From assembly GCA_947034885.2 (NCBI GenBank), contig OX344756.2:20195489-20259488 (forward strand): 64,000 bases of DNA, read 5' to 3'. Shown piece after piece: positions 31,733 through 62,253 of the stretch. Source of the stretch: Thuidium tamariscinum (Eukaryota > Streptophyta > Bryopsida > Hypnales > Thuidiaceae). Position 1 is the first letter of the stretch, and every line of letters starts with the position of its first letter. The notes under the pieces are model-generated. The model did no database searches. It saw only the letters and a list, made by a program, of their open reading frames with translations, and had not been told where the DNA came from. Both the position numbers and the translations under genes were made by a program.

Positions 31733-34700
31733 TGTGGCAACCTAGAATTCACCTAAGCAGGTTCTTAAGCAAAATACGGGAAGAGGGATCTATTCAATCC
31801 CCATTTTTTTTTGTTGTTTTCTTAGTTTTTACACATAATTGGGACCAAGACCGGAAACCGGAAAACCCTAGACCGTAAACCAGAAACTACGTTAAGGGAC
31901 AGCGTATGAAATCCCGGATTCCGCCCACCTAGCGACCGAGACCGGATAGGTAATGAGTGGCTACCGAGTCTAGAGATCGTCGGGATCTCTCCCACGTGAC
32001 CAGACTGGTTTAAACCTAACGGTCAGTAATTAATGCCGGGGGAAAAAGTATAAGACCAGGGAAGCAGGGCCAGGTCCTGCCACTTTCTTGCACGCAGTTC
32101 GAGAAAGGGTTTCCGGCCAGAGATAGAGTATTCGGTCTACAGACAGAGAGAAGGGATAGATAAACTGTCAATCCGGTCTGGTACATAGTTGAGCGAATAG
32201 CACTACGCTAGCTGACAAGTTCTTGAGCGCGAGAGGTTTAGTTAAGTTGGACCGCGCCTAGATTGTGTAGGCGTCAAGTGAGAGATGGCAGAAGAGGTGC
32301 AGGAAGGAAGGATTCTAGCCTTCCGGAATGTGAATCCGGTCGTGCCAACTGACGCACAAGACAAGAGGGAGCTGGAGGAAGACCTCAGGCAGATGGGCTG
32401 CGAGGGGTTCATGGCTCACCCCTGGAACCTGAAGGATGAGGCGATGGTGGAGGAGCTACTGGCCGGCCAGACCAACGAGTGGAAAGGGACGGTCCGGGCG
32501 CTGCCAAAGGAGTGGAGTGCAGCGATGTGGCGCAAGGTGTACGCCTTCGAGCAAGGAGGAGATGCGACGGGCACCCGGACGGACAAATTCCACCAAGGGA
32601 AGTTCCGCAGGCCCACCAACCCGAAGGACGGCTTTACAGTAGCAGAATGTGTGTCTGCTAGACACAAGAGGCTACTGCGGTTCATGATGGCGATCTTGAA
32701 CCCGGATAGACCTAGTAGGATTACGGTCACCGTGGCCAACACCGTCTTTGGTGCACTGTCGGGGGACAGGAAGATAGATTGGGGGTTAGTTATGAGGGAC
32801 CGGATGGACCGAATGGTGAAAGGAATTGGGAAATCTAAACCCTCTCCCATTTCACCATTCCTGTTTCATCTGTATCATTCGTTAGACCTCTTGAGAGAGA
32901 AGGAGATGGAAGCTTACGAGGTAGGGGCTGCATTGATAGAGTATGAGATTGCAGACCCGGAAGCTGAAAATGACCAGGATGAGGAGGACTCCGAGGATGA
33001 GAGTCAGGAGGGGCATCAAGGAGGCACACAGGAAGTAGAGGAGGTTCCAGAGGTAGGAAGAGAGGATCCACCTCTAGAAACCCCTGTAGTAGCCGGGGAA
33101 GCCTAGAGGTTAGATCCGGTCTGGGAACAGGATCCCTTGCTAAGGATCCTGCGAGACCTGGAAGATTTCAAAAAGCACCACCTAGAGGAGAGAGGGTTAT
33201 TGCGGGCCATAAGCCAAGCCTTAGGCTCTATTCCCCCCTCCAAGATCATGGAGGTGTTGGGAGAATTGATTCAGGAGGCTCATGATAGTCGGGACAGAGA
33301 GGAGGTACTCCGGCTAACAAATCAGGTCTCAGCCCTGAGGAGGGAGCTCCATCACACTCAGGAGGAGCTGGATGAAGAGAGACGCCTCACCACGCAGGCC
33401 CGGAACACACTCGGAGAAATCTGAGAGTTCATCACGCATCCGGGTGAAGTCGTCAACAAAGCCATGCTTTTCGACAGGAAGGTCTTGGAAGCAGGCAAGA
33501 TGGTGGGTCCTCAGATGCTTACAGCTCTGGTGGCCTACAACAAGAAAATGGAGGCAGCGTTGGAGAAGTGGCGGTCAGTAGTCACGGAGGTCCAAGCTAG
33601 TTCTGCTCCGGTCTCAGGACCGGAAGAGCCAAAGATGGAGAAGGAGCAACCGAAGGATCAGCCACCACCAGCAGCTGTCGAGGTAGAAGCCGGCATATCT
33701 GAACCGGCGAAGGAAGAGGGAACCAGGACCGACGCAGTGGAGGAGGAATCTGTTCCACCGGCCTGGATTGAAGAGCCCAGGGTTTCTCAACCCGAGAAGA
33801 CCAAGGAGCCGGAACCCGAGCCGATTGTGTTGAGGGAGATAATCTGGGGAACTACACCACCAAGGGAGAAGACTAAGTTCATCACCTTGTTGGATGATTC
33901 TCCAAGCAAGTCATCACCCACGGTCATCACACAACCAAAGACCGGAGGGGAAGCGAAGGCAACGGTGCAGGTCCGCTCTATACTGAAGACCGGATCTGGA
34001 TCCGGGTCACCAAGCCAGGGACCAGCCCGGACTGCCGAGAGAGTGGGGGAGCAGACCCCGCAAAGCAAGATAGTGCACCACCCGCCCATCACCGGATTCA
34101 AGAAGAAGACCGCGGAGACATCCAAGGTGAAGCGGAAGGCCCGGGATGAAGAGGAAGAGGAGTCAGATGAGGAAGATGAGGACTCGGAGGAAGAGACCGA
34201 CTCCGGTGATGAGTCGGAACAGTACTCAGATGCGGACCAGGCATTGGCAGAGACCACGAAGACCAGGGCCAGGGCGCGGGGTAAGACCAAACCGAAACCC
34301 AAGCCCATCAAGATGTACCGGTCTCCGAAGAAGCAGCCAGCCCGGAAAGGTGCGTCGCCTCTCAAGAAGGCGAGGAAATAGGGGGCATTAATTGCAGGTA
34401 GATAGGAAGGCGGCTAAACCAAGTTATATTTAGGTTAGGAACTTTTGAACTTAGACCGGATCCAGATATGTAGGATCTGTGATCCTATTTTGTTGGTATT
34501 TTTGTAGTTTTGTGGAAGTCAACCTACCCAAGTTGTAGAGGAATGTGAGGTGGCATTCTTGGCGGCTGGTGTTGATTCCATTTACACTTTTAGGTTTTTC
34601 TTGCAGTTTAGTATTTAAACCCGGTTCGTAATTGAATCCGGGCGCGCATTATGTTATCTTACTTTCACAAGTTTTTGTGTTGCAAATACAAGTCAGAACC

Positions 34701-34780
34701 TTTCTGATTCACTCTGAAGTGGACTGTGTGCATGGGACCTTGTCAAAGTCTTATGGTGATGGTTAGGATTGCAACCTTGT
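31733..34780 (+). mobile_element. E-family LTR, copy E2, cut at its right end
   Basis: It starts TGTGGCAACCTAGAATTC, matching the solo LTR E3 read on the minus strand (TGTCGCAACCTAGAATAC). A TATA-like GTATAAGA lies at 32048-32055, about 235 bp before the ORF ATG. The tract after the ORF (34440-34780) is homologous to E3 (about 42400-42760, inverted). It stops abruptly at GCAACCTTG, where the 20-kb TIR element begins. Confidence 0.75.
32285..34381 (+). pseudogene. E-family LTR ORF, copy E2 (unknown function), two in-frame stops
   Basis: ATG 32285 opens a 699-codon frame interrupted by TAG at 33104-33106 and TGA at 33422-33424, both followed in phase by sequence homologous to copy E4 (LDPVWEQDPL against DLVWNSDPL; EFITHPGEVVNKAMLFDRKVLE against EFISVPAEVLNKAKLFDEKVLE). 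It has the same architecture as E1 and E4: conserved N-terminal domain (TDKFHQGKFRRPTNPKDGFTVAEC, VTVANTVFGALSGDRKIDWG, PISPFLFHLYHS), coiled coil, acidic/Pro-rich linker and basic tail (KKQPARKGA, also in E4). Possibly nucleic-acid binding through the tail; otherwise unknown. Confidence 0.7.
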
Positions 34781-34811
34781 AAGGCCTTATTCATTATATT
34801 GAGACAAAATG
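34781..34811 (+). repeat. left terminal inverted repeat
   Basis: Begins AAGGCCTTATTCATTA and continues through TTGAGACAAAATG. A second TGAGAC follows within 20 bp. Confidence 0.75.
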
Positions 34812-35218: not shown

Positions 35219-36112
35219 TTATTTTCCATGACTTGAGCTTTTCGCGAGTGCTCTCAAGATATCCTCGCGTCGAGAAGGATACGGAGGCCCACTCTTACCG
35301 TCCTGGTTATCCCAGGACTTCACGTTGCTCGAAATATTATGCTTCCGCTTTTGTGTGCTCTTGCTTGTGGCATGATCCGAAGCAGAAAGTGATTTTGATC
35401 CTCCAATGGGCGGTTTCAATTTTGATGTAATTACATTGTCTTTGTACATGTCAAGGTGTCCAACAGATTTGGAGCTCATCGAGCGCTGATGATCTCTGAG
35501 AACCCTCTGACGAAAGAGGCTGTCCGACGAGGGCAGCCGGCGAGCCCCCGCGGACATGGTACGTCGCGGTCGATTATCTTCGAGTCGAGGTAAAGGGCGA
35601 GGAGTAAGAGTTTGGATCATAGGGGATTTGACGGTGGTCCGCAGTGGAGGTCGAAAAGGTCGGAGCATCGACCTGGAGACGTAGCGCATCCGACGCGCCT
35701 GCCACGACATCGTCGACCCGAGGATGAGTGCCTTCATTCCCGTCGAGTAGCTCCAGCTTCCTACTGGTCCCACCTTGCGCGCGCGAAGTGGGAGAGATGG
35801 ACCCCCCTCGAGTCGACGATGTCAGCTTCAGTGGAGACGGAGAGCAAGTGCGCGACTTGGACCATCCGCGGCTTGGCGGGCTGTTGACGACGCCGTCCTC
35901 GACATCTCCCTTGGAGAAGTCTATGGCCGCGGAGGCCGCGTCCGCGGCGGACCGCAGCAAATACGGTTTGGATGAGGGAGCCGACCATCCACTCCCTCCA
36001 CAAGAGTCCCCCCCATCGGAACGGGGTTTCTCGAACCCCGAAAGCAGACTCCTCGTGAGTCGCTGCTTTTTTGTCGGCTTGCGAGAGGGATCCTGTAAGT
36101 CTACCTGGTGCA
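35219..36112 (-). CDS. uncertain Ser/Arg-rich minus-strand coding region
   Basis: After an acceptor-like TTGCACCAG, a minus-strand frame from about 36112 to 35574 (DLQDPSRKPTKKQRLTRSLL, then a Ser/Gly-rich region) and an overlapping frame 35773-35219 (RMSSKSVGH-like, Ser/Arg/Lys-rich, ending SRREDILRALAKSS) are open. A frameshift or an unseen intron may join them. No domain is recognised. The region has four of the dispersed palindromes, which bias it toward Arg/Leu/Asp words. It could be a separate gene downstream of the ParB gene or non-coding. Confidence 0.3.
35259..35823. repeat. dispersed palindrome cluster 1 (four copies)
   Basis: Copies lie at about 35259-35282 (ATCCTCGCGTCGAGAAGGAT core), 35574-35593 (TTATCTTCGA-G-TCGAGGTAA), 35707-35727 (ATCGTCGA-C-CCGAGGAT core) and 35805-35823 (CCTCGA-G-TCGACGATG core). 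They are more degenerate than those upstream of the ParB gene, but share the TCGA-N-TCGA centre. Confidence 0.65.
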
Positions 36113-37446
36113 AGAACAAGACATTTTCACGCAGAGAAATGCACACGCGGACTGTAGAAGCAGACATACATCGAATACAATTTCGGAAGTGCAAGGCAGA
36201 CAACAAGAATCCTTGCTCTAAGAAAACAAACAAAGATTTAGAGACGTTATGAGCCGAAGTGGAAAATAATATTTACAAAATAATGTATGGTACACAAGTT
36301 TCATACAACACGTAGTCCTACAATTTGTCACTGGAGCCTTATGCCACGCCTACTTTTTACGATTTCGTAGACAAATGATTTTCCTAGTGCAAACGGCGTA
36401 GCGCGCCCCCATGACCTTCGCGGACTCTTTCATGCCCTTGACCACTTCTTTGAAGTACGGGTTATCGTGATTGAGCGACTCTAAGCCGATCCGGTTGTCC
36501 TCCACGTACTCCATGAGTTCGCCTTCAGGGCAATGCTCGTGCAGACGCCGCAACCATGGGAGGAGCTCTCCCATGAGCACGTCGTCCCTGCGCTTGGCGT
36601 GACTCCAAGACTCTAGGAAAATGGAGTTGCCATTCGCATTGCAGATACCCTTCGCGGGAGTATCGTCAATGAGGATGGTTTCGTGCATGTAGAACGGCCT
36701 GTTCCCATCGTTGATGGGGAAGAGGTTGTCCTCCAAAACTTTCATGAAGAGTTTTTTCCCCCCATGGTGAAAGAATTTTCCCAGAGCCGTTTCTATCTTA
36801 GTGCACTGCTCCTGGCTTAGTATATCGTAGGGGGCCTTACAGCCATGGAACAAGTGCGCCGCGATGGGTTCGGCATTCTTCTTGAGCATGGTGGTCCACA
36901 CGACTACCCTGTCCGCGATCTCCCACAGCTGCCGCAAGAACTCTCCGACATTCTACCGGGCGAACACAAACTTGGACCCGATGCTGGTTGGGTTCCTATG
37001 GCACAGAACATTGTCTTCGACGTTGTGGGACTTCAGTTTGTCCCCGTAGCACTTCTGCATGCTTTGGCAGAGCACCCCGTTCAAGTCCAAGACAATGTTC
37101 AGCCATTTTCCTCGCGGTGGAGGGACTAACGGTGGCACGTTCCTCGGCACGACCTCTCTCCGCTCCTCCGTCTCTACCTGACGAAAGCAAAACAACAATG
37201 AGATGGAGTTACCTTTTGAAATGCAGAATCGGGAGAGCCAGGAAGTGGAGACTTGCATTGAAATCCACTTATCGACTAGTGTCCCCCGTTAGGAAAAGCT
37301 TTCATTGGGATCGGGCGGTGCACGCTAACATTTTTTGGGAGCTGGGCATCAAGAAAATGTACAATTAGACTAGTCCACACTTGATTTTTTAAGAACATCC
37401 GAATACTTTATTTGCACATGTTATAAAGTACATACTACAAAATTTT

Positions 37447-38089
37447 CTTTTCGTCGAGTCGACAAAACTGTACACTCAGTCGCCACTAAGCTACACTGTA
37501 CTACAAAGACTTCGGCCACAGATGGATTCTCTGTCAGCGCCACGGATTCAAGATGAGGCGACACCACCCTGTCATGAATCATGAACAGAAGTGAGAGTCC
37601 AACACAATTACAATTTTCCATTTCCCTTTGATTAGATAGAAAGGACCTCAAGTTGTTCAGACTCAATCAAACTTGTAGGGATTCGAATCGAATACCTGAG
37701 TCGCGTCGTCGGCCACTTCATCTCCAGTACCCACAATCTCGTCATCCTCATAATCCACGAGATCTTCTTGTCTCTGGGATTCTGTCTCGTGCTGCACCGC
37801 ATCCTGTTCCGACATCACACATGGTGGCACTTCAATACTGTCATTTCTTGGTGCCACCACACGCGACGGACCCGCCTCTGCCTCAGATCTGTCGTCGAGT
37901 CGACGATACTCCTCCGCAGTAGGGACTTCGGAGTCCAGAGATGCGAGATCCTGCGTCTCTGGGATGACGACCTCAAACGCTGCAAGATCCGGAGAGATGT
38001 GCTTGGGTGGGTTAGAGAGCGGAATGGAGGACGCTGCTTGCACCTCCGCAATGGCCACGGTGTCCACGTTATCATCGAGTCGACGATAA
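37447..38089. repeat. dispersed palindrome cluster 2 (one intronic, two inside coding sequence)
   Basis: 37447-37467 is in the last intron (core TCGTCGA-G-TCGAC). 37889-37910 and 38069-38089 lie within exon 3. The latter is TTATCATCGA-G-TCGACGATAA, one mismatched pair. Read on the minus strand, the two exonic copies encode YRRLDDR and YRRLDDN. Confidence 0.85.
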
Positions 38090-39383
38090 GGGATCTGGCT
38101 CTCCTCCTACGCGACCTGACTGGGGGCCGGGACGACAGATGGACCCACTGGCGCCTCCTGACTTGCACCAGACTGTTGAGAGAACGGAGCCAGTTGGGAG
38201 AACATATTCTGGGACTCCAGAATGGCCGTAATTTGGGACAGCCTTGCCTCCAACTTCTCCATCTTCTACTGCGAAGCAGCGCTCTGGGCCTTCGCTTTTG
38301 CCAGGGCTTTCTTCGTCTGGGCCGCCTCGTCCCTCCTCGCCTTCCGCCTCGCCCTGAGGTCCTCCTGTTCCTTCCAGTACCCCTTCTCGATCTTGATGAC
38401 TTTGCCATCACGCGCTTTGACGACTGTGCCATCTGGTGCAAGAAGGGGCTTCATCTCCTTCACCTTGGGAGGAGCATCCATGTCTTCGTCGTCGTCGTCC
38501 GACTCGTGGGGCCTGTTGAGGTCTTCTTCATCGGAGGAATCACTGCTCAACTCGTGGATCACGGGCGGGGGCCTCGCCACTTCTTCTGTGGTCTCCTCCT
38601 CCGCGTTCAGAATGGGGTCCTCCATTTGAACCGTGTTTTCTCCCCCACCTTGTTCTGCCTCCACCGTTAGAGGCCTGGTGTTAACCACATTCTCCACCTC
38701 CATCGGTGGAGCTGCCTCTGGCTCCAAAGGCTGCATCTCCACGTCCTCGTCGAGAACACTTCGCGAGCCTCTCCTTCGACGCTGAACTCTATCTTAACGA
38801 AGGAATTGGTCGAATTCCGTGTTGTCGTCGAACTCGTCGTCCAAGTTCACCGGTTGAAACGGAGGCAGTACGGTCTAAGACTCCTGAGGCTGATTCCGAG
38901 GCTCCGAAGGATGCCTAGATTCGCTTGGGCCGCCCTGTGTGTCCATGGGGTCGCCTTGAGTACCCTCAGTCCGAACTGGTACATCAGGTAAGAAAGCCGG
39001 AGTGGCCATCCATGAATGTACTTGGAACGTATTTGTTCCATACTCATCGATGCCCTCCACCCCTGCATCATGGCTAACTTGTTGGCCGTTGGACTGCCCC
39101 TTGTCCTGCCTTTGTTCCGGCACGTCAACTGGAGACACGAAGCTGAAGTCTGCAGGTGCAGGGGAGTTTACTTCCGCTGCATCTTCAGAAATGGGGTGAA
39201 CGTATGTCACGGTGTAGGGCAAGTTGGAGAACATGTAATCGTTCTTGTCCATTTTCTTCGCCAAGTATGAGATCTTGAGTAAGGACTTCGCGTCGTCATG
39301 ATCACTGAATCCGTAAAAATGCGCCCCAAACATCTGCAAGAGTTTGGATGAGGAGTTAATTACACACACATAAACAGTCCCTG

Positions 39384-39484
39384 ATATCGTCGACTCGACA
39401 ATATGAAAAAGAGAAATAAGCCCAGAAAACTCGTATGATAAGAACAAGACATAACACACCTAGTTATCATCGACTCGATGATAA
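39384..39484. repeat. dispersed palindrome cluster 3 (two copies in one 174-bp intron)
   Basis: 39384-39404 (ATATCGTCGA-C-TCGACAATAT) and 39464-39484 (TTATCATCGA-C-TCGATGATAA, perfect over 21 bp). Both fall in the intron 39334-39507. Confidence 0.9.
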
Positions 39485-40985
39485 GTGCTCAGAAGTAAGA
39501 TACATACCTTTGATGCCAACATGAATTTAGGGCCTGTGTAAAGGCCGAGGACATTTTCGTCAGGTACTGCAAAATTTTGGAGGATCTCCAGGTAGAACTC
39601 CATTCTAAGTTCTGATGGTTGTATCCTCCACTTCGCCTCCGTATTCCTTGAGGCATCCGTATAGTAAATGCATGAAGCTGGTGTGTCGTACTCAGCCTTC
39701 ATGTATCCCTGGACCTTCTTCGCAAACGCGCTCGCTCTCTTGAAGAGGAAAAATAGTGGTACGTTGGGAGCTATCGTTCGACTGGTGCTGGTCCCCATCA
39801 TCTCCCCCTTGCTTGGGACGTAAAGCGCCTTCAGGTAATCGTACTCTTTAAATCTGTACGTCACAAACTTCATCGCCACCTTCACATCATCTCTTCCCCG
39901 CAAAATGAAGAGCCACACGTTGGGCTCTGTCATTTTTGGGTCAAGCTTTTCCTGAAGGAAAGTCAAGAAGGGATCCAATTCCGCCACCTTTTCCAAGGGA
40001 TCCATGCTTGGAATCTCTCTTGCGTCCAGCACAACAAGATTCACATTCTGGGAAACGTACCGGTACTGCGCGCTCTTCACAAGGGCCCTCGCCGCGACAT
40101 CAATGCCGCGCGTTTGAACTCCACCCAACGGATCCGGTAGTTGGTACTTCAATTTCATGAAGCGGCAGAACATGTAGAAGATCTCTGGATACGCCTTCTC
40201 CAGGTCCTTAGCCCGCTTCAACCATGCTTCATTCTTCAGACGAAGAGCAAAATACCCTACCTTCGGGTACGACAACAGGAAGTCCCACGTCCCGGAAGAG
40301 AAGCGATGTCTAGCCTTCCAAGCTTTCCACGTTCTATTGGAAACCTCTCCTCCGACTTCAAAAAAATTCAAATCTGGATTTATGGCCATTAAGTCTTGAA
40401 GGACGATTTTCTTCCGCTTCCGTCGCTCTACCCATTCTCCATGGGAGAGACTGTCAGGCACCATGATTCTGTTCTTCGGTACCGTTACTTTCGGGTACAC
40501 AGCTTTCTGCCCTGGTGTTTCTGCCAACAAATGCTGTGCAAGGACTTTGTAGTCCACGTCTGTGAATCGCCCACAGTGCCTGAAGAACTCCCTATTGAGG
40601 GAGGCGGTCTTCGCTTTGTATCCCTTTATAACCTTGTAACGGTTTAAGGTCACAGGATCAATGAGATCGCCATCTGCATGCTTCGTGAGAAAGCGCTCCC
40701 AGAAATCCCATGCGTCATCCGCCAGAGTTATTATCTGAATTTCATTTTTCAGATCAGTGGGCCCTTTGATTGAGGCACCGTCTCTCACAGGATTGATGTC
40801 TTGAAACCGCTGGATAACGGCATCCGCAAATTTCTGCGCACATCAAATAAGGTCAGATCAATTTAACAAGCACACTTCAGTATATATTCGCAATACTGGA
40901 CGACGACTTTCTCTTCACTACAAGGAAGAGAGAATACACAAAACAAGGTAAAGCTATCAAACTCTACTTCCACAACATACAACAG

Positions 40986-41006
40986 TTATCGTCGACCCGA
41001 CGATAA
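40986..41006. repeat. dispersed palindrome in the first intron
   Basis: TTATCGTCGA-C-CCGACGATAA, one mismatched pair, in the intron 40834-41027. Confidence 0.88.
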
Positions 41007-41507
41007 ACCTCACACAATAAGACGTACCATAAATTTTGTACAATCGAAAATGGCACCGTTCTGCCGCGTGGCACCCTCGGATTCGATGTCCATCAGCCGA
41101 TCGCAAGCAAGCCAAATCTTGCGGCAGCTGATTACCTGGTTCCCCCAAGTGGGCCGCACAAGATTCAGATGGTTCGTGCAGTTGTAGAACCGTGAAATAT
41201 TCCTCAGCTTCGCGGCATCCAAACTCCACACAATAAATGCATCCCACTCTTGCAGCTTAGCTCTGCGCTTCTCTCCGTGAGGGAGGACGTCTTGAAGTTG
41301 CTCGGAGGCCGTAATACTGTGTTGCCCGTTGATGATCATAAACTTGCCCCGCTTGATTTCGTCCCATCCCTGAGGTTTGCTCTCAAGGAGATTGTTGTGT
41401 TCGTCGACGGGAGTGAGGCAAACCTTTTGCCGTTGCTTGATGTCGCCGAGCTGTATAAGCTGATTCTTTACAGCTTCCACAATGTCTTTTTGCAATGTAC
41501 GAATGAT

Positions 41508-41512
41508 ATATC
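41508..41512. repeat. target-site duplication ATATC (left)
   Basis: Identical to 43410-43414 on the other side of the solo LTR. Confidence 0.85.
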
Positions 41513-43409
41513 TGTCGTAGCACAGGAAAGCACAATTCCTTCTCTAAGGCGTTAGAATGCACTAAATTAGCCTTAAAGTGACTCGTGTATCGTTTCCAAA
41601 GGATTTGGTCGAAAGTTGACGAAAGACCGGAATACTATAATGGTAGTCACAACAAAACCCAAGCAAAGACTAATCCGGTCCCGGTCTGAACACTTCCTGA
41701 TTTTTACTTCTGGACCGGAACAGGATCACACTTCTGACTGCAGAGAGTTTCCTCTCCACTTATACCTACATGTTTAGATTTTTCTTACTACTCTTTCTGA
41801 ATATGGGACCGGAGACCGGAAACTAAGATCTGGTCTGGTCCCTAAATAAGTGACCAAGTGTAGGTTTAACCTCTGTAATGAGAGGGATCTGCTTGTTTGG
41901 GCATTCAGGAAGGAAGCTTACTCCTACCCTTCAAGTTTTAAAGTGTCAGAAGTTCCACTATAAAAATAAAAAGAAGAAAGATAACAAAATAAATCCTACC
42001 AGACCGGAATACTTCACAACTGGACCGGAACGGATCTGGTCCAGCAGGTCACGCAAGCACTCCTGTCTGCTCCTAACAATTACTACAACGACAGATTACT
42101 GAGTTAGTCCTGCATCTTAGTAGAATAAGGGCGGTAGCTTGCATGAGAGAGCTATATCCTTCACTAGTCCTTCTTTCATCTACAGAGACCGGATCACCTT
42201 TCAATTGGCATTTGGTCGGACGCTCCCGATCTCAAACCCAGATTCTACAAGTGTCTATCTCCAATGATTACTCCCCAGACCTGCTCCAAATTATACTGAG
42301 AGATCCCACACAAATTCCCTATCAAAACCGAATTCACTTCAGGTCCAGAGACCGGATAAACTCAGAATCCGGGCACACCTCCTCTCCACCCAAGGTTGCA
42401 ATCCTAACCGTCCCAACAAGACTTTGACAGGGTCAAGTGTACACAGTCGACTTCAGAGTGAATCAGAAAAGGTCTGATTTGTATTTGCAACACAAAAACT
42501 TGGGAAAACAAGATATGGAACTACACACCGGATTCAACTACAACCCGGATTTAAATACTACACAACTCCAAGAATAACCTAAAAGTACAAGGGGAATCAA
42601 CATCAGCCCAGAGAATGCCACGTTACATTCCCTTACAACTTGGGCTCGTTGACTTCTAAAAATCCCACAAAAAGTGGATCTCAGATCCTATAAATCTGGA
42701 TCTGGTCCGGTCTAGGTGAATCCAGCTCAAAAGTAACTTGCTAACTATTTTCTACCTACTACCACTTTCAAATTCATCTTCTCCTAAAATTATTCTACCT
42801 ACTCTAGTTGCTAATTACAACTACCTTTTTATCTATTTTGGGGGGAAAACCCACATGCTTGGTGGACCCTTCTATAGCTGGTTGCTTCCTACTGATTGAT
42901 ACCTGGATTGCAGCTGCAGCCTTTTCCTTGGAATCTTTCCTTTCTCCTTAAATCGCTGAGGAGAAGTAACATCCGATCTTGAGTCATGATCCGGGTTCCG
43001 GTCTCTTGTTCCGGTCCCGCTTGGTTCTAATCCGGATCTTGACTAGACTGTGCTTTCTCCCAAGGTTGGATGAGCTGATGTATCACATCAACTTATAGAC
43101 TTTCCTCCCATTCTATTTCTATCCCCGGACATACTCTTGAAGTCCCACCAAATCCTTAGTAATTTTTCTATAGGATCCTCCTTCAGTTTCCGGTCTCTGG
43201 TTCCGGTCTTCGGTTTCCGGTCCGATTGGGAAATACAAATTCCTAGCTTAACCAATTTATCTCTATAAGACTATTCTACTTTCCACTCATCATTAATCTT
43301 AGTCATTCATCTAATTCTCTCTCAAAGAATCAGAAAAATTTGCTAAGATTGGATCTTTTGTTCCTAATTCTGTCCTAAATAATAAAAACTTGTATTCTAG
43401 GTTGCGACA
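41513..43409 (-). mobile_element. solo LTR of family E (E3), 1,897 bp, ORF-less
   Basis: Bounded by TGTCG...CGACA and flanked by perfect ATATC duplications. Removing the LTR and one duplication joins ...CMIADDRY to IIRTLQKDIV in frame, restoring the host exon. It is homologous to the post-ORF tract of E2 and E4 (AGCAGGTCACGCAAG; GGTTGCAATCCTAACC; AGTGGATCTCAGATCC) and to the E2 start (CAACCTAGAAT). It lacks the ~2-kb ORF carried by the others. Orientation is minus, judged by E2. Confidence 0.88.
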
Positions 43410-43414
43410 ATATC
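43410..43414. repeat. target-site duplication ATATC (right)
   Basis: Partner of 41508-41512. Confidence 0.85.
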
Positions 43415-44400
43415 GATCATCAGCAATCATACATTGCGAAATCGGGACAGAAACTATCTCCATGTCGAGCAGGAAACAGTCCTTATGCTGTGCCCAAAAG
43501 TCACACCGGATTAAGGCGAACTTTTCGTGATCTTTCACCACAGTTTCCTCTTTCTCTGTAGATGCAGAGACATTGGTCAGTCCTGAGGCTGATCCAGACG
43601 CAGCCGCTGAAGCCAAAGCCTGCGCAGTGGACTTCCGCCTCTTCCTGCTAGATTCCCCTGGCTCCGATGTTGTTGCGGTTCGTTTCTGTGGTTGCGACCT
43701 TGGTTGCGAATGCGTTGGTTGACTTCTCGCTAAGGACGCAGGTGTAGGTGCTCGAGCTTGGGGAACTTCGGTACCCCTATACCCACCTGCAGTTGTTCCT
43801 CCAACAATAGGCCTCGTCTCTTTGTTTTTGTAGGCATACCTATCCAAAGACTGCCAAATCAGTCGGAGCCTCTGAGCAATGGACCTCGCCGACCCGTCTT
43901 TCCATGGCACGTATCCCATTCTTCGAAAATCATCATTTAGGGACTCCATGGGCGACCCGTCCATTGAGTCCATTAAAGTCTCGAGGTCGAACTTTCCGCA
44001 CCGGGCGTGCACGTTTAAGACGAGTGAATGGCAGTGACCTCTTTCCCTGCCTGTGTCGTTGACGTCTCGGAGGACGATGACAACGTAACTATGTTGGTGA
44101 TCTTCAACCACTGACACTTTTTTATGTATGTTCCACGGCAGGTAATTCTCGGTACCGCGAATACGGTAGCGGAGGTACACATAATCCTTCCACCTGCTGA
44201 CACCGAACGTCCATGAAGCTACGTGGTCTTTAAACTCCCAGAGCTGCCCGTAGCTTTCTTCCATTTCAGATATGAAAGGCCCATCATTTATGGGATTTAT
44301 GAATTCCTTAAGGTGAGCGGAGTTCTTCGAGTAATCATAGTTGTCTTCACTCGCCATCGTATCGAGCTGCAATATATAGGCCAACGACTGTTAGTGATTG

Positions 44401-44985
44401 TATCGTCGACTCGACTATACCATAATGTCAAAATAGTTATCTTCGGATCGATGATAACGATCCTATTTTAACACCCCTAAACTTCTAATAATCATCTCAT
44501 GTTCTCTCAGCGGTGTGTATCAAGGACGGGGGGGTCAGGGTCGTTATCATCGACCCGATGATAACAGGTTGTGAGTGTGAGTAAGTACTTGGTTAAAACA
44601 GATACCATTGTTAGTATTTTGGTTTAGGGTTGGAAACAGATATATATTTCTTAAAGATCCCATTTTTCAACTACCGAGTAAGTGTATTCTGCACATTATC
44701 ATCGATCTGAAGATAATTGTATGGAATCTAAGGATGAATATCGCCTGATGAATGCTGTTATGGACTAATTGATGTGTGCAAATAATTCTTTCACTACTTC
44801 GTGGTTATCCTCGAATCGAGGATAACCTTCATTTTCTGATTGTGTGGACTAAATCTTTAAGTTGTACTAAAAGTTCGTTCTAGGAGGGTATTTTAATTTT
44901 TAGAACAGAGATTAACCCGAATTTGGGTCTTTGCAGAACAGTTTCTGAAAGACTTCTCTGTGGTTATCCTCGATTCGATGATAAC
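44401..44985. repeat. dispersed palindrome cluster 4 (six copies upstream of the ParB gene)
   Basis: 44401-44419, 44437-44457, 44543-44565, 44696-44716, 44803-44827 and 44963-44985. The copy at 44803-44827 is a perfect 25-bp palindrome (arm GGTTATCCTCGA, central A). Others have one to three mismatched pairs. All start just 5' of the ATG at 44357 (minus strand), a promoter-proximal position. Confidence 0.92.
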
Positions 44986-46915
44986 ATCCAATACTAGTTG
45001 TCGGAAATTCATAAAAACTCTGCTTGAAATTATTCTTTTAGGGTGGGTTTGGGCATTTTGAAAAACCAAAACCCTAATTATGGCCATCAGCAGGGAATTG
45101 ACCTGGTTTGAAACCTAAACCCTAATTGTTTCAGGGGATTCACGGTTCTATTTCCTGTCAATTGGAACCTAAACCCTAAACCCTAATGTGCCTCACAGGT
45201 CTTCAATGCTAAAAACTCCGTCCTAAAACCCTGATGGTAATGGAGAACTTCCACACCGCACTTCTAAGTCTTCTTTGAGAAAGTAGGGAACACATAACAC
45301 AAATTCACGAAGGAACACTTACATGAATAGAAGTGCTTCTGTAGTGTCGTGACGGACCTCACGGAAATTGAAAAAATACAAAGAAGTGGTTCCTGTATAG
45401 CAAGAACAACTTCGCACATGAGTATGGCAAAAATGCTATTACAATGTGCGTACATTCACAAAACACTTACGAGTGAACAATCAAGCCACAGCCCACAGCA
45501 CCCCGACCACAGCATGCACAACTTCCAAACCCGAATTGGCACCCCAAACCGGCAAAATCAACGAAGAAGTGAAATTGAAACCACTTACCAGAGGAGAGAA
45601 GTGCACAGCTGAAGTAGCCCAAGACTTGCGGATGTACACCACCTCTCGAGCACAGAAGCAGGGTTTCGGTAAGACGAAATGATCTTGAAATTCAAGCCTC
45701 CAAGTCACGGAAGCTCCGCCCTCACGATCGTAGCTCCCTCCACACCAGCGCCCAGAATGCACCCTAAAGCCTGACGTTTGCACATCCTCACCACCAGCGC
45801 ACTGAACAAAATCTCCGCACCTCCCTCAATAGCAGTGGACACGTGCCACACTCCCAAGAGCAAACCCTGACGCTCGCACGTCCCTCACAACCAGCGCACA
45901 CAAGAGAATCACCACACTCACGGCAAAACCCTCCCTCAACATCAGTGCTCAAAACACGGAAGAAAGAGAACACAAACTCACACTACAAGAAGCAACGAAG
46001 AGCACAGAGGACGACGAAGAACACTCGAGGTGAGGAGAACACAGGAAATGACGAAGCGACAACAACAACCTATACTAAATACACGCAAATCAACCTCCCA
46101 ACGAGCGTGCAATGAACCTCCGACCGAGCGCGCGAATGGAGTCTCCTCGGATGTTGGGGAGAGATGACCCCCAACCTTAACTGCCCAGGTTCGGTAGCAG
46201 GTTCGGTGGCAGGTTCGGAGATGCCGAACCCACGGCTTCGGATACTGAGCTCATGGTCGGTTGGTAGGCCCGGAGATCTAAAACCGCCCATTAAGCTCGG
46301 AATATCCGAGCCTGTAGGTTCGGGAGACATAATTGAAGACATGGAACGTACTTCGAACATGTAGGAGGTAAAGTAGGTACACCCAAAAGCGCCACTTATT
46401 CATACAAAGACCAGTTCCTGCTACTAATTAGTTCAAATTTTTATGTAGTCTTGTTGGCAAGTGAAAGCATGTTCCAACGCACCAAACAACGCAGGATCTG
46501 GATACCGTATACAGAAGTTCCTAACACTCAAAGTCAGTTTCTGAAAGCGCCCTATACAGTCTGCGTATATGATTGATTTCGAAAATGTATGTGTACTGTA
46601 CACGGCGCTTCTAGGAACAGTGCGATTTTAGATGTATCCACCTTATGGGGAACGACCTTGAAGGATTAAGCGTTCTAGAATGTTCACATACTTAAAGGAA
46701 GTTTTCTCTTCGAAGAACTCATATTCAATACTAACAATAAGAATTGAAAATCATGAATCTTAAAAAAAAATTAAAATTTGTAGAGAAACTATAAAATTCC
46801 TATGAATTTTTAGGTTAAAACTGTAGAAGGCACTTGAAAGCATACTAACAATTATGGATAGTAGTACCATCCTCAGTAACTCTGGAATTAAAGAAATTAG
46901 TACTGGAAGAACTAT
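44986..46915. other. non-coding spacer between the two element genes
   Basis: No gene is supported. It contains CCTAAACCCTAA tracts at about 45112-45125 and 45168-45187, and a segment at 46180-46340 rich in GGTTCGG words with the hairpin GCTCGGA-ATA-TCCGAGC near 46293. It probably includes the 5' leader of the minus-strand gene. Confidence 0.5.
45168..45187 (-). repeat. interstitial telomere-type repeat (CCCTAAA orientation)
   Basis: About three units of CCCTAAA, with a shorter tract at 45112-45125. Confidence 0.8.
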
Positions 46916-49230
46916 GTCATTCCAAAATGAACCTAGAAAATGTCAGGGTAGCCTTTATGGGAAAAATTGAACAAGAAACATACAATTTCAAGTTTGTAAG
47001 GGAATTTGTCATGGAACATGAATGGTCTATGACATTCCAACTTCTCCAAACTATTTTTGGTCCCCCTTTTACGTTCATTTTCAATTGTATAGGTCATTCC
47101 AAATTCAACGCAAAAAATGACAGGGCATCCTATTTTTCCAAATTAAACAAAATATAGGCAATTTCAAGTTTGTAATCAGTATTTGTCATAGAACACTCAT
47201 GTTCTATGACATTGCAACTTCTCCATTTTTTCTTTATTATCCATGCACGTTGTTTTTGTATTGTATAGGTCATTCCAAAATGAACCCAAGAAATGGCAGG
47301 GTAGCCTTTTTTGGGGAAGTTGAATAAAAAATATACAATTTCAAGTTTGTAAGGGAATTTGTCATGAAACATGAATGGTCTATGACATTCCAACTTCTCC
47401 AAACTGTTTTTGGTCCCCCTTTTACGTTCATTTTCAATTGTATAGGTCATTCCAAATTCAACGCAAAAAATGACAGGGCATCCTATTTTTCTAAATTAAA
47501 CAAAATATAGGCAATTTCAAGTTTGTAATCAGTATTTGTCATAGAACACTCATGTTCTATGACATTGCAACTTCTCCATTTTTTCTTTATTATCCAAGCA
47601 CGTTGTTTTTGTATTGTACGGGTACATCCAAAATGAACCCAAGAAATGGCAGGGTAGCTTTTTTATAGGAAACTAAACCAAAATTAGGCAATTTCAAGTT
47701 TGCAATGAGGATTTGTCATACAACATGAATATTTGATGACATTCAACTTCTTTATCTTTCTTTTGGTCCGTCTTTTATCTCTATTTTAAATTTTATGCGC
47801 AATTTGGAAATTAACCGACAAAATGAGAGGGTCCACTATATTTTTTGACATTTTTGGAACAAATGTACAGGAGTCTCTAATTTGACCTTACAATTGAATT
47901 TTAGAGATATATTCGAAGTTGTACAATGTCTGAGTTCGCCATATTTGATGTGAATTTTCAAACATGCATAAATTCAAACTTGGCAATGCCTACATTAGGT
48001 CTTTCAGGGAATTCAATGAAAATTTTTGAACAGAAGAATATGATTGAGAAATTTGACCATACATTATAGTTCTGGAGATATATTCCAACTATTAGATTTT
48101 TTTTGGCCATTTTCCAACGTGAATTTGGTTGAACCCTTAAAAATGGAATTTTACATTCAATGTGTGTACTTTATGTTTATGGAAATCAATGACAAGTCTT
48201 TCTGGTAAAATTAAATAATTTTACCAAATTGAGCATACAATATAATTTTATAGATATATTCCAAAGTCTACTAAGTTTTGGTTCACCATGTTTGACGTGA
48301 ATTTAGAAACATGCATGAATTTGAACTCGACAATGCCAGTACTGGCTGTCTTAAAGAATTCAATGACATTTTTCGAAGAAAGCATTATGGTTGAGTAAAT
48401 GGACTACAAAACATAATTTAGGAGGTATATTCCAATTTGTACATGTTCTTTTTCCTGTTTTCAACGTCAGTTTCAAAACATCCATGGAAATGGAAGTTCA
48501 ATTACAATGTGTGGACTTCATTTTTTATGGAATTCAATGACATTTCGGAACAAATGTATATGATTTTTTAGCTTACATAATAATTGTAGAGGTACATTGC
48601 AACTTCTACAATTTCTTGGATCGTTGTGTTTGACGGTAATTTTAAAACATCCATGAATTTGAACTTCACAATGCCTGGACAGGGTCTTCTAAGGAATTCC
48701 ATGCTACTTGTTGAAGAGAACAATATGATGTACCAAATTGACCGTACTAGAGAATAATTGTGGATGTATAATATTATTGGTACAATGTTTTGGGCTATTC
48801 TCGATGTCAATTCTGAAGCATCCATGAAATCGAAGTTCACATTGTCTCCACTAATTGGATGTTCATTAGAATTCAATGACATTTTTGGAAGACACTAAAA
48901 TGACTTTGCAAATTCACTGTGGAAAATGAATTTGGAGGTGTATTCATACTTTTACATTTTACTCGGGCTACCCTCAATATGAATTTTAAAACATTTGTAG
49001 AATAAAACTTATAAAAACATTGATTGGCAAGGCTACGCCTTCTTTTGAATGGAATGCAGTTTTTGCACGGAACTAAAATGATTTAGCAAATTGATCGTAC
49101 AATATAATTGTGAAGGTTTATTGTAACTTCTAAAATAATTTTTTTTCATTTGGCTATTGTTCATGTTCATTTAGAAACATCAATTCAATGGGTGAATATT
49201 CGATGTATTACCTTTTTTTAATTGGTACTT
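46916..49230. repeat. ~176-bp satellite array with a 353-bp dimeric higher-order unit
   Basis: The word GTCATTCCAAA (or close variants) starts monomers at 46916, 47093, 47269, 47446 and 47622, spaced 177, 176, 177 and 176 bp. Monomers alternate in type (AAATGAACCC-AGAAATGGCAGGGTAGCC and AAATTCAACGC-AAAAAATGACAGGGCATCC), giving an exact 353-bp dimer. From about 47800 more degenerate monomers continue (GAATTCAATGACATTTTT-like word about every 174 bp, to near 49050). Roughly 13 monomers in total. Short ORFs across it are repeat artefacts. Confidence 0.85.
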
Positions 49231-50669
49231 ATTGACAGCTTAACTCTGCACATGTGTCCATGAATTTCTTTTTTTAAGAAAGAGCACTTAGCAGGACTTG
49301 AATTCCTACATGATTTCTTCAACAATTCAACATGTTAGTGTAATTTAGAAGTTCTGAAAAATTTGGGTTGTTGACAGTTTACCTTCATTAGGGTGTACAA
49401 AAAAGATTAAGGATTCAAGGCTTATATGTAAATTTTTCAGCCTTACGGTTTCTGTGTTTTTCTTCTATGATTTATGGCCATTCGTTACTCCTTATTACTT
49501 CTAAAGTTACGATTAATCTTCATGCTCCAAAGTTTAGCATTCTTAGGCTTCAAAGTTCAGATTTAGGGTTCCAAGATGCACCATGACACGTCATGGTTTG
49601 GTGGGTAGGGTTTAGGGTTTAGGGTTTAGGGTCTAGTAGGATCATGGGAAAGAACTTGGAAGCATCAATACTTTCAAAATATTCATTTTCAATTTCATCT
49701 TTGTTCAGCTTCTAATTTTTGTTACACATCCAAACTTTAAATCCATTTGAACCCAGAGATGTTTTAAATCCCTTAACCCGTAGGAAGATGGACCCTCAAT
49801 CGTCAAAACCCTGAACCCAGGACATTGCAGGTTTTGGATTTCTAAACTTGGACCTAGAATTTTTACGTGATTGGAATGGGGGGGGGGAAATATTGCGGGA
49901 GAAGCCACTCGGTAAAGGCAGTGGAAAGTGCTAGGATTCTCCTAAATGTGGGGCAGAAGTGCTGGAATGGCAGAGGTAGTACTGTAGCTGTCCATGTAGG
50001 GAAGCATCTTCTTTGGACCGTTAAGCAGAATTAGTAAAGTTGACAGCAGAAAGCTGCGAAAGACGCCTTGAATTTGCTTACGAGACACATGTCACTACAG
50101 TGTTGGGACGTGGAGGGATTTTTGAACTTCGGGATTTCGCGCTCTCAATTTCCCGCCTACAATGTATTTTGGCTTGCATGCGTCTTCCCTATCGGGTCCG
50201 TGGACATTGTTTTTCTTCTACATGATTTCGCAGGGGCTCAGTGTCGTCGCTTTGTTCTTGACGTGGTCCCTTTCTGGAGTGAATGCTTGATGCTTTTGTA
50301 GCAGTCCTACACTTTTAGAGCACACAGTGCGCGGTTACTCACAACACATTGTTTCCTTTCAAATCTGCAGGTAATGAGGGGGCTTAGTTGTGATACAGTG
50401 CATAGAGTGTAGGGTTTGTAATGCTTCGTCGCCGACAGAGATTTTACTAGGCAGTATGCATGGCAGTCCTAATCGTAGTCTGTGACATTCTTTGTATTAC
50501 ATATCGTGTCTTTGTTTGGGTCGTTAGGTTCTTATTTGCTCATGGAATGATTGAAGCATGCGATATCAAGTGCACTCTTTTGTGTAGTAGTGAGTTGTGG
50601 AAAGTGGAAACTGAATTCGAAACGTTTAGGAATTCCGGAAAACATGCTGGAAAAGACGGAGGTGGAGGC
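49231..50669. other. spacer upstream of the DUF7869 gene
   Basis: Holds the TTTAGGG tract at 49604-49632. Small open frames at 50.0-50.7 kb could be upstream exons, but none can be linked to the gene by a clear splice frame, so none is called. Confidence 0.45.
49604..49632 (+). repeat. interstitial telomere-type repeat (TTTAGGG orientation)
   Basis: About four units of TTTAGGG on the + strand, opposite in orientation to the CCCTAAA tract at 45.17 kb across the satellite array. Confidence 0.88.
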
Positions 50670-51335
50670 TTATTGTCGATTCGAAGATAATGAATATTGT
50701 AATGTTATATAATATTCTGAGACTTAAGCTTCTATCTTGTGTTTATGAACAAACACAATTATACGTATTTGAGACAAATACTTATTATCGTTGACTCGAC
50801 AATAGCATGTAATGAATGCATCAATTGTTTTGTTCATGCGAAGGTCCTAGTGGATGTGATTGAACTGTGCACATAATTTCTAAATTTTATCTTGAGAGAG
50901 AATAATATTTCGTCTTGGAGGATATCCTCGACTCGACGATATCAGGGACAGGTCATATGTGGAGGACCGTGTTCGTTGGGACTATCTTATAATTGGGTCT
51001 TAAACCGCTAAGTACTTTCTGCCTGACACTATATTAAAACTTCAATTTCACCGAAGATATGAAGAAATGTTCTGACTTTTACATATTTGTGTGCACATCA
51101 TTTTCCTGGTTACCCTCGAGTCGACAATAAGTACTTGACTGCCACTGTATACATGTGATGAAGTGGTTCCCCTCGTGACCTACCTTGCTCTTGTAGTTTC
51201 TTAAGACTAACATTTTCATATTCCATACAATGTTTCTTTATCCAGTATCATCAGGCATGGAAGTGTGTTGCAATCATAGAATTATCTATCACAAAGAGGG
51301 TTTAGTTAAAATCTTTATCATCGAGTCGATGATAT
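50670..51335. repeat. dispersed palindrome cluster 5 (five copies upstream of the DUF7869 gene)
   Basis: 50670-50690, 50785-50804, 50921-50943 (GATATCCTCGA-C-TCGACGATATC), 51110-51130 and 51315-51335 (TTATCATCGA-G-TCGATGATA). The last ends 32 bp before the ATG at 51367. Confidence 0.9.
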
Positions 51336-51366: not shown

Positions 51367-54222
51367 ATGGATTACCATGGCCCTGAGGATTTTGCAAATC
51401 CAGTGGCAACACTACCGCTTGATGTTCGCTTATGCGAGGGACTTCCTCGTTCGAAGTGGGTCATGCAGCCGGTCACACTTCAAGATGAAGACGGAGTGGA
51501 CATTGCGAGGGGAGTCATTCAGAACATTGACCCTGACATGATCTTTGATCAGAATGGAAAATCTCTAAGCGATGACCGTGTTGCTGTTCACATTGCGGAG
51601 TCTTTGAATGAAGAGCTCTTTTCTTCGTCGAATATGTGGTCTATATGCTCTTGGCACATTCGGAATGTGTTTTTATATGACGGTGCTTCTTTGTATGACC
51701 ACGATGAAACACATAAATACAACATGGCTTTGAATCCCAAAAGAGCTCGAAAGGGGTTACGATCGTACGAGACAACTCGTGTGAGAATTGATCCAGAGGT
51801 CCCTCCCAAGAAGCAACTTCTCTTGACTATGGAATCGATCACATCAGTTTCCACAAAAACTTGTTGCAGAGAGATTTGTGTGCAGACTTTTCCTCGTGCA
51901 CAAGTTCAAGCAATACGGACTGAGCTGTATGGTGGTGGTGACTTCAAAGCTCGCAACAAGACTTTGTTGGAGGTGCATAGGCAAATTCACAAAGATGTTA
52001 ATGGCAAAGAGTGGATCACCTTAAAAGAGAGGGAAGTTTGTCCTACGGCGTGGTGGATCATTCATGGAATTGCAAAGTGTACATTCTATAGGTACAAAGA
52101 GAAAGCCAAAACTGGGAAAGAAGCTGATGTGCATGGGAATTTGGGATCCAAAAAGCCACGCATGGAAACTATTCAAGCAACCGCCACACTTCGAAAGTTA
52201 ATAGAGATGGATGCTGATAAGATGCCACACAAAACAAGGACGCTGGAGTCCGGGGAGAAGGTTACTGCCATGGTTCTCCCGTCGTCGTTTCGATGGAGTG
52301 ATCAATTGAAAACAATCAATGAATCCAATGTAAGCTTCAATTTGCCACCCATCTCCTCTAGTGGTTTGAGCAATATTCATCGTAATTAATTTCTCGAATT
52401 CGCTGCAAAGGCGCGTGGAGATACATTTGCTAGATGTGGGTTGTGTGACAAGTACAATCAATTGAGGAGTGCTTGTGTAGGTGAGGAGGCAAAATCTAAG
52501 TGGACAGAATTGAAGAAAACCCATAATCAGGGGCAATTGGCTCATAGGCATTTGTACTACGGACATCGAGACGAATCAGTGAAATTGCCTGATAAAGTGT
52601 TGTGCATTATTCATAACAAGATGGATCATTCGAAGACTGCATCTCCGCACTTCTCTCACAAAACCAAGGTCACTGAATCATTCATGAAAATGCCTGTAGC
52701 GGTAACAGGTATGATTGCTCATGGGCATGGTGATGTGCGATATGCGCACTATGGTTTGGACATTTATCCAACTGATTCAAATCATACTATTGGATCGATT
52801 GCGAGGTTGTTGCGTAATTTGGAAGGAGCACCAAAGAATTCATCGCGCATGTTATTTTCAGTGGAAGATAACCAATCCACCCTTACAAAGGCAGTTCTAG
52901 ATGGAGCAGTAGCTTGCTTGGACTCGCTTCTTCCACCTCCGGATGAGCCACTTCCACCTAAACCTCTTCCCCCTGTTTTAATGTTACAACTGGACAATTG
53001 TTCAGGGGACAACAAGAATCGTTATGTTTTTGGTTTTTGCTCCATGCTTGTACACAAAGGCATTTTTCGGGAGGTGTACATCAACTTCCTCATTGTGGGG
53101 CACACTCATGAAGACATTGATGCTCTTTTTGGTCGATGGAGCTCGAGATTGAAGACAAATAACTATCCAACAATTCCTAGGCTTATGAAGTCTTTTATGG
53201 ATACTGAAGAGCACCCTGTGATTCCTCATCTCATTGAAGAAGTTCCTGACTTCAAGGCGTTTGTGCATGGATACCTCGGCACAGGTGGCGATTTCTTGGA
53301 GGGTCATTCTAGATCCCAACAATTTAAGTTTTTCAAGGATTCTAATGGATGGCCTTTGATGGAGTACAAGAATTTGTGTACAGATGATAAGTGGTTGCCT
53401 GAGGGTGGCAAGGGAATTAGATTGTGGTCCGAGACTGCACACGGCCTTCCCAAAGTGCCAACAGGTAACCCTCGACCTCTAGTTCCTGAACCGATGAAAG
53501 CACTTCAAGACATAAAGAAGGGTTTGAACGGTTTTGTTGCATACTGGAAGAAGATGGCAGATGACGATTATACAGGGGAGTTCAGGCAAAAAAATGGCAC
53601 CTTGGAAGATTATTGGAAAGGCGTTCGAACGGCTCTAGATGCACCTCTTCAGCTTCGTGAGTCATTACTCGATGGATTTTGGCCAGCTTCTAGGATTACC
53701 CCTGATGAGACTGATCGCATGCAAAGAGATGGTACATTGCATGAGGAAGACGCAGAAGATGTGCCATTTGTTGGACGTAGACGTGATCGACTGCGTCCTT
53801 CATTCCGTGTGAACGTTGATACGCACGAAGGTTCTTTTATTGCAGTGCGCCCTGCAGATGGTGATCCTAAACCATTTTGGTTAGCTCGGGCTATTACGGC
53901 TCCAAGTCCAGATCCAGGACATATGCATATGATCAGAATTCAGTATTGGACGCCTGCTTCAAATCGACACATTAATATGGATACGTATGAGGGATGGGAC
54001 ACGAAACAAGGGAATGTGTGGCGTGAAGACACTGTGATCAAGCCAACATGGTCAAATACGGGTTGTATCTTAACGGCTTGGAAGCCTCGTTTCCGAGAAA
54101 ATACTAAGAAACCAAAAGTGTCGATTCCAAATTTACAAATTGGCATCATTAAGGCATCAGTAACAGCCTTTACAATCGAAGAACGCAACGACGAGGCAAA
54201 TGAGTCTATGGAGAAAGAATGA
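51367..54222 (+). pseudogene. DUF7869-type putative transposon protein, one in-frame stop
   Basis: ATG 51367 follows an acceptor-like TGTCTGCAG, so an upstream 5' exon is likely. The frame is 952 codons long and broken only by TAA at 52387-52389 (residue 341); coding character continues in phase (FLEFAAKARGDTFARCGLCDKYN). Features: a C-x2-C pair near residue 357 and H-R-H-L-Y-Y-G-H; then the family core LQLDNCSGDNKNRYVFGF (about 540-557) and FLIVGHTHEDIDALFGRW (about 575-592), whose Asp/Glu/His pattern suggests a metal-dependent RNase H-like site (inference). A C-terminal region rich in W/P follows. It is the likely mobilisation gene of the 20-kb element. The single stop may be decay or recoding. 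Confidence 0.78.
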
Positions 54223-54757: not shown

Positions 54758-54788
54758 CAATTTGTCTCATTTTAATGAATAAGGCCTT
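54758..54788 (-). repeat. right terminal inverted repeat
   Basis: The reverse complement begins AAGGCCTTATTCATTA and continues AAATGAGACAAATTG; 28 of 31 bases match the left end. Confidence 0.75.
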
Positions 54789-62112: not shown

Positions 62113-62253
62113 AGGTCGACTCAACCTAAATTGCATCTTCTTCTAGAATATAACAATCAAGTGCACTATTTTTATGCCGAATCAACCTAACTTGATTCCA
62201 CCTCTAAGAAACAAGTGCACAGAAGTTGCAATTTAGGTCGACTCAACCTAAAT
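62113..62253. repeat. palindromes near the second DUF7869 gene (TCGACTCAACC type)
   Basis: 62113-62127 (AGGTCGA-C-TCAACCT), a diverged copy near 62178-62197 (GAATCAA...TTGATTC) and 62231-62253 (ATTTAGGTCGA-C-TCAACCTAAAT, one mismatched pair). The odd centre and TCGA-C-TCRA core match the TTATC-type palindromes of the 20-kb element, but the arms differ. Confidence 0.75.

Follow-up and report, generated by a model that had tools for sequence, protein, structure and literature searches.

Palindromes of a 20-kb moss DNA transposon as putative sites of an element-encoded dimeric protein

What are 21 dispersed copies of one odd-centred palindrome doing in a single transposon? The question is raised by a 64,000-nucleotide stretch of moss DNA (contig OX344756.2, hereafter the window), in which a 20,008-bp DNA transposon carries two divergently transcribed genes, one labelled ParB-like in an earlier note on this DNA and the other encoding a DUF7869 protein. 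Using a symmetric 25-bp weight matrix, we found 21 sites of GTTATCnTCGAsTCGAnGATAAC in the element and none in the remaining 43,992 bases. From comparison of sequences across copies and relatives, we propose that the palindromes are putative binding sites for a dimeric protein that the element itself encodes, with a role in cis in both mobility and expression, and we give this reading a probability of about 0.66.

A palindrome family within one transposon family

The 21 sites scored between 17.3 and 34.1 and all fell at 35259-51335, the next best place in the window scoring 5.9. Scores above 5 were reached at 22 places, compared to a mean of 3.1 in 60 third-order Markov sequences; these controls retain pieces of the motif, and the top single score among them was 20. 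The pattern TTATCRTCGANTCGAYGATAA was found at 16 places in the window with up to three mismatches, all at 37.9-51.3 kb, and at 19 places with up to five, starting at 35.6 kb. The matrix is strongest at T(-4)C(-3)G(-2)A(-1), flanked on the outer side by TATC, while positions -5/+5 and 0 are almost free; the centre of the palindrome is GANTC. The earlier note had announced at least 21 palindromes between 35.26 and 51.34 kb, two of them perfect, and the matrix indeed recovers 21, including the perfect ones at 39464-39484 (21 bp) and 44803-44827 (25 bp). A variant that had been placed at 62.1 kb is not a member of the family. The odd palindrome nearest to that place has its centre at 62242 (TTTAGGTCGACTCAACCTAAA); it retains just part of the TCGANTC core, has other outer letters, and may be a diverged site belonging to a different family. 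Rfam gave no match in the window.

The sites, none of which has a strand, are concentrated around the two genes. Six lie directly upstream of the ParB-like gene (44400..44984, starting at 44400, 44437, 44544, 44696, 44805, and 44964) and five directly upstream of the DUF7869 gene (50670..51335, starting at 50670, 50785, 50922, 51110, and 51315), in line with the clusters of six and five that had been described ahead of both genes. As the two genes are divergent, both clusters face a middle region of about 5.7 kb, which contains no palindrome. The introns of the ParB-like gene, also named beforehand, hold one site in intron 1 (40986..41006, score 31.0) and two in intron 2 (39384..39404, score 28.8, and the perfect 39464..39484, score 32.1), and one further site is intergenic, between the ParB-like and NIF genes (37448..37468, score 21.6). 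The other six lie outside introns and are not upstream of genes; they fall in possibly coding stretches: 35259..35279 (score 17.6), 35574..35594 (22.1), 35707..35727 (25.1), 35802..35822 (17.3), 37889..37909 (22.5), and 38069..38089 (34.1). In this copy or in a complete copy on contig C4, such sites would read, for example, PYRRVDDN, HPRVDDV, or PLPRLEDN, and the C4 counterparts of the last two sites are in open stretches reading YRRLDD and YRRVDDN, respectively.

In the 363-Mb host genome, the palindrome was found at 2,702 forward places (up to three mismatches) compared to 45 for a reversed control, so that the claimed confinement to one element holds within the window but not outside it. 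Starting from perfect sites among the matches listed, we retrieved 27 loci: 18 were long elements, nine were miniature inverted-repeat transposable elements (MITEs) of about 254 bp, and none was anything else. An unrelated genomic signal is rejected on the ground that all 27 retrieved loci belong to the transposon family. Long elements were identified because their DNA aligned with the window element (63 to 97% identity where aligned) or by their own proteins; for L028, L031, L034, and L035, the alignment was with a different long element. Across 20 loci in which element limits could be set, 115 sites fell in 94,951 element bases and none in 58,553 flanking bases; loci showing only one end were counted as element up to the locus edge, and since the loci had been chosen for holding a site, only the zero outside the element is unbiased. 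Two complete copies elsewhere carry the motif, with 20 sites in the 19,986-bp copy at C4:32477220-32497205 and 24 in an 18,967-bp copy on C3 (L014:758 to L015:9724). No exact match to the motif was found in viral contigs.

Fixed positions in introns, relatives, and MITEs

We compared introns 1 and 2 of the ParB-like gene in 11 copies, which form five groups of close copies. All 11 hold palindromes at matching spots, although exon 1 protein identity goes down to about 50% and the introns align mainly at splice sites and palindromes. The first palindrome begins 19 to 25 nucleotides into the intron, the exception being intron 1 of L007 (7 nucleotides), and a second one is found at 127-145 in intron 1 of eight copies and at 100-120 in intron 2 of all 11. 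Of the 22 sites in intron 2, two are weak (scores 13.7 and 15.7). Copies with stops or frame breaks were left out of the protein alignments, namely L008, L015, L017, L033, and parts of L007, L011, and L021 for exon 1, L011, L015, L016, and L021 for exon 2, and L010 for DUF7869.

The intron 2 motif could also be followed in proteins of relatives from other contigs that read through into the intron. The motif peptide was present in 17 of 20 relatives with at least 40% identity and in two of three with 30 to 40%, compared to a shuffled mean of 0.15 in the former group and to eight of 1,500 exon-coded stretches. Over all 30 tails, the stricter pattern gave 17 matches and, after widening on the near misses P0128 and P0165, 19. 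Past exon 1, the only two matches of the exon 1-2 search, P0121 and P0122, both read into the motif. When a loose pattern was run over 122 proteins, it matched these two, P0002 (upstream of the likely start), and P0097 (within the protein and surely by chance). This evidence is at the protein level. Separately, P0191, P0194, P0196, and P0198, with identities below 30%, read through intron 2 with LARIEL, FSSxRAK, or FSSSR; as a guess from these peptides, the underlying DNA could be a variant of the palindrome, built around TCGANTCGA.

MITEs were then sampled by their ends rather than by the palindrome, taking 20 consecutive terminal inverted repeats (TIRs), among 100 listed, without a listed partner at 17-23 kb. 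Thirteen were MITEs, 12 of them with a right end (250-256 bp; weak in L051), while L040 has lost its own right end and carries unrelated sequence instead. A palindrome is present at offset 69-70 in all 13 (scores of 12.8 to 24.4, above 14 in 12) and a second one, scoring above 10, at offset 190-193 in 11, placing the sites 69 bp and about 43 bp from the two ends. Outside CpGs, the motif cells of both sites were changed in 3/384 cases, compared to 87/1,919 elsewhere in the MITE (12 MITEs, omitting L040 because of its unrelated right end). In the majority row of 21 MITEs, eight of which had been selected for a perfect site, the two sites read TTATCATCGAGTCGACGATAA and TTATCTTCGACTCTAAGATAA; this alignment omits L029, which has an internal insertion, and includes eight of the nine perfect-site MITEs. 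The other seven sampled TIRs (L037, L039, L041, L042, L047, L048, and L050) have no palindrome in about 400 bp, and some of them resemble the right ends of long elements, where sites are likewise absent. Beyond ends and palindrome, the MITEs have little in common with the long element.

A candidate binder and the competing explanations

The reading that we favor is that the palindromes would be double-stranded-DNA recognition sites for a dimeric protein encoded by a family of ~20-kb DNA transposons, marked by TIRs common to long and short copies, 4-bp target duplications, and the DUF7869 protein as presumed transposase. The binder would be encoded by the ParB-like/methyltransferase-like gene, one of the divergent pair. 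On the clusters before both genes and on the intron sites it would set expression or chromatin state, while palindromes near both ends of a MITE would turn a DNA molecule into a substrate for mobilization; in addition, adenine at the GANTC centre of the palindrome may be modified. Because MITEs keep the sites, mobilization probably needs them, and their presence there points to mobility and not to gene control alone, whereas the intron sites and those ahead of both genes suggest expression control too. A dimeric, element-encoded binder had been put forward by the earlier note. The comparative data speak for it (one family, fixed spots with diverged flanks, MITEs, and relatives at about 50% identity), but this does not extend to the identity of the binding protein.

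As to that identity, the structure predicted for exon 2 (pLDDT 86) resembles the fold of beta-class N6-adenine methyltransferases. The best Foldseek matches were M1.HpyAVI (E = 1e-4), CcrM (1.1e-4), M.BceJIV, and MboIIA, with 13 chains at E ≤ 0.001 and MTA1 and METTL3 beyond this threshold; TM-scores of the 13 chains were modest (0.31 to 0.53 by target). Residues aligned to the catalytic DPPY are mostly D-x-R-x-x-P. For exon 1, a suspected ParB region (NGQHS...) was picked by eye; Foldseek on the exon 1 model returned nothing (best E = 0.46), a PDB sequence search returned nothing for either exon, and the one ParB-like match in PHROG (P0121, residues 157-214, E = 0.019) does not fall in this region. 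We consider it an even bet that the methyltransferase-like protein is the palindrome binder. With DPPY absent, a sequence-specific reader or the partner of an active enzyme is likelier than a methylase. Only tentatively do we go on to suggest an address system, in which a CcrM-like, catalytically altered methyltransferase-fold/ParB-like fusion would read the GANTC-centred palindrome, mark long copies and MITEs as self, and be needed both to mobilize them and for the activity of their genes. An open frame at 297-1016 of the window contains GNHRLLSW and by eye resembles the ParB-like region; it has no Pfam match.

Several observations weigh against this reading. The catalytic motif [DNS]PP[YFW] was found in none of 90 homologues (88 of them relatives of exon 2, many partial). 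A ParB N-terminal domain was not detected by Pfam at E ≤ 10 in exon 1 of L019, in P0121, or in P0122, and the exon 1 AlphaFold model was poor (pLDDT 46), only residues ~36-180 being fairly confident; Pfam thus lends no support to the ParB-like label given by the earlier note, and the ParB part was modelled with low confidence. At position -1/+1, the A of GANTC shows 87% conservation, below that of its neighbors; this argues against methylation of this A as the essential function and leaves such methylation a possibility rather than a conclusion. Below 30% identity, the motif peptide was found in none of seven intron 2 read-throughs, and on the intron 1 side, exon 2 heads gave the motif in two of 15, a number equalled by shuffles (maximum of two). 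Unlike the MITEs, three complete long copies have no palindrome within about 470 bp of one end and about 3.4 kb of the other. The MITEs L040, L044, and L053 have flanking letters in common and may represent one duplicated insertion. Finally, when 239 sites were reduced to 96 flank groups (leaving out sites no more than 30 bp from the end of a locus), positions ±5 were symmetric in 51 groups compared to 30 expected, and positions ±9 in 84 compared to 78 expected, a value reached by one of 500 shuffles. Shared ancestry of the sites may contribute to both.

The same symmetric excess, smaller at ±9, is what pre-mRNA hairpins that regulate splicing or bind a protein would leave, and the first intron site does lie about 20 nucleotides from the 5' end of the intron in nearly all copies. 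However, positions ±1, 3, 4, 6, and 7 show paired changes at chance frequency, with no excess of compensated pairs, and sites also occur upstream of genes and in noncoding MITEs. Departures of G.U and A.C type were about equally numerous among the rows shown, which speaks for DNA rather than RNA. An RNA-level signal therefore seems to us very improbable. Functionless insertions or template-switch products could likewise account for the excess at ±5, but such a mutational by-product would hardly keep position and sequence constant across diverged copies with unrelated flanks, and the motif is seen at the protein level in other contigs as well; we give this explanation next to no weight.

There are two further alternatives. 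Under one, an element protein would bind intron and intergenic sites solely to strip the methylation placed by the host on the DNA, so that the genes stay on, as VANC does in Arabidopsis, and the MITE site would be a relic of the master copy. Sites in introns and upstream of both genes are what VANC21 sites in VANDAL21 would lead one to expect, as far as the parts of that study consulted here describe them (PMC5735166). In the 13 MITEs, CpG cells of the first site were changed in 28/78 cases compared to 2/182 for other non-centre cells, as in methylated DNA, and at 237 matrix-picked sites of long elements, core CpGs were changed in 45/948 cells compared to 372/3,318 at other fixed positions. 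Yet MITE CpGs outside the motif decay equally (10/24), suggesting host methylation of MITEs rather than protection of the motif. MITEs moreover have no genes to protect but had the site in 13 of 13 sampled, and VANC21 sites are described as short, same-orientation, tandem-amplified sequences that differ between related elements (PMC5735166, in part), not as stable 21- to 25-bp palindromes. We hold anti-silencing alone to be unlikely. Slightly less likely still is that the DUF7869 protein binds the palindromes purely as subterminal sites for end recognition, the other genes being passengers: this agrees with the distances of 69 bp and about 43 bp in MITEs, but not with the site-free ends of the three complete long copies or with the concentration of sites in introns and upstream of genes.

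Known systems and the element itself

The closest counterpart is Sola1-1_Ec32 of Ectocarpus, a 21.5-kb DNA transposon in which a gene for a ParB-like plus N4C/N6A-methyltransferase protein stands opposite the transposase; similar giant elements occur in green and red algae, and the authors raise the possibility that the Sola1 ParB-methyltransferase proteins bind the transposon that encodes them and modify it (PMC12477816). The passages of that paper on Sola1-1_Ec32 name no binding site and mention no MITEs. As judged from these passages, the moss element is alike in its 20-kb size, divergent genes, methyltransferase-like fold, and suspected ParB-like part, the latter without profile support, and unlike it in that its methyltransferase part lacks DPPY. 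A precise 21-bp candidate site makes the proposal of self-binding testable, and the MITEs, which share little with the long element besides ends and site, offer a natural control. The published proposal concerned algal giant transposons; the present candidate site is in what is probably a land-plant genome. Sola elements make 4-bp target duplications.

In the VANDAL/VANC system, an element-specific motif in introns and intergenic DNA is also present and is bound by an element-encoded protein; there the motif occurs in terminal noncoding DNA as well, and the VANC21 motif is a 9-bp YAGTATTAY in same-orientation arrays, often as fast-evolving tandem repeats (PMC5735166, in part). The moss motif differs from it in being dispersed, palindromic, positionally stable over 21 bp, and present in MITEs. 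TnpA of En/Spm is a second element protein that recognizes internal subterminal 12-bp motifs, with roles in mobility and in methylation and expression; its sites are subterminal, whereas in the moss element the long copies have them close to genes, and only MITEs have them near the ends. The predicted exon 2 fold is shared with CcrM and other beta-class N6-adenine methyltransferases (PDB 6pbd and 5hfj), from which exon 2 departs by D-x-R-like residues in place of DPPY and by a putative recognition word about four times longer. CcrM recognizes GANTC, which is also the centre of the palindrome. Bacterial ParB binds dispersed palindromic parS sites. Dispersed palindromes and a "ParB-like" protein are found here too, but the moss protein has no Pfam ParB match.

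The element is bounded by TIRs, the left one (AAGGCCTTATTCATT...) at 34781..34811 on the plus strand and the right one at 54758..54788 on the minus strand. For the left 200 bp, 40 matches in the genome were listed, and the TIR pattern occurs at 376+371 places in the genome compared to none for a control. Of these 40 left-end matches, 27 lie on contig C11, which makes up 17.5 of 363 Mb (4.8%; binomial 2e-26; 40 of 97 candidates scored, copies not independent), and the element may accumulate there on a special chromosome, perhaps a sex or B chromosome. The window copy has no target duplication (ttgt/ctaa), while the complete copies show tatt (C4) and atca (C3). A 4-bp duplication flanks eight of the nine perfect-site MITEs (L012 atat, L022 accc, L024 ttag, L026 attt, L027 aagt, L029 attg, L030 gtag, and L036 atat), that of the ninth, L023, being ambiguous, and 11 of the 12 TIR-sampled MITEs with a right end, the exception being L043.

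The ParB-like gene is on the minus strand. Its exon 1 (41028..44357, with start and splice site inferred) is split here by an insertion at 41513..43409, with limits good to a few bases and no strand, that is absent in copies L005 and L019. Exon 2 (39508..40833) encodes the methyltransferase-like fold without DPPY, as judged from predicted structure and homologues, and exon 3 (38212..39333) is acidic; the limits of later exons are not fixed. Farther along the minus strand, Pfam identifies a NIF/FCP1-like phosphatase domain (PF03031, 36353..37171) with one in-frame stop in this copy, and there is a basic open frame of unassigned function (35222..36104), which in this copy has a frame break near 35.62 kb. 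On the plus strand, the gene for the presumed transposase (DUF7869, PF25273 by Pfam, 51367..54222) has an in-frame stop at 52387 in this copy and none in L013, L014, and L025. Among the 120 of its 323 relatives that were listed, the named ones are from mosses, for example, Ceratodon (P0024, 52%) and Physcomitrium (P0044, 48%); the DUF7869 profile matched nothing meaningful among solved structures (best E = 0.47), and no literature on DUF7869 was found. A second piece of a DUF7869 gene, with 50% identity, is present at 62632-63999 of the window on the minus strand.

Repeats are found in and around the element as well. Between the divergent genes, the spacer at 46913-49138 contains diverged repeats with spacings near 350 and 175 bp, of which L005 has more matching copies. 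A 125-nucleotide repeat fragment in the left flank of the element (34655-34779) recurs inverted, with 87% identity, at 42391-42515 inside the exon 1 insertion. Lastly, the element region is flanked by the arms of an inverted repeat, 21348-23119 and 58134-59905, which are 1,772 nucleotides long, 99% complementary, and 35 kb apart.

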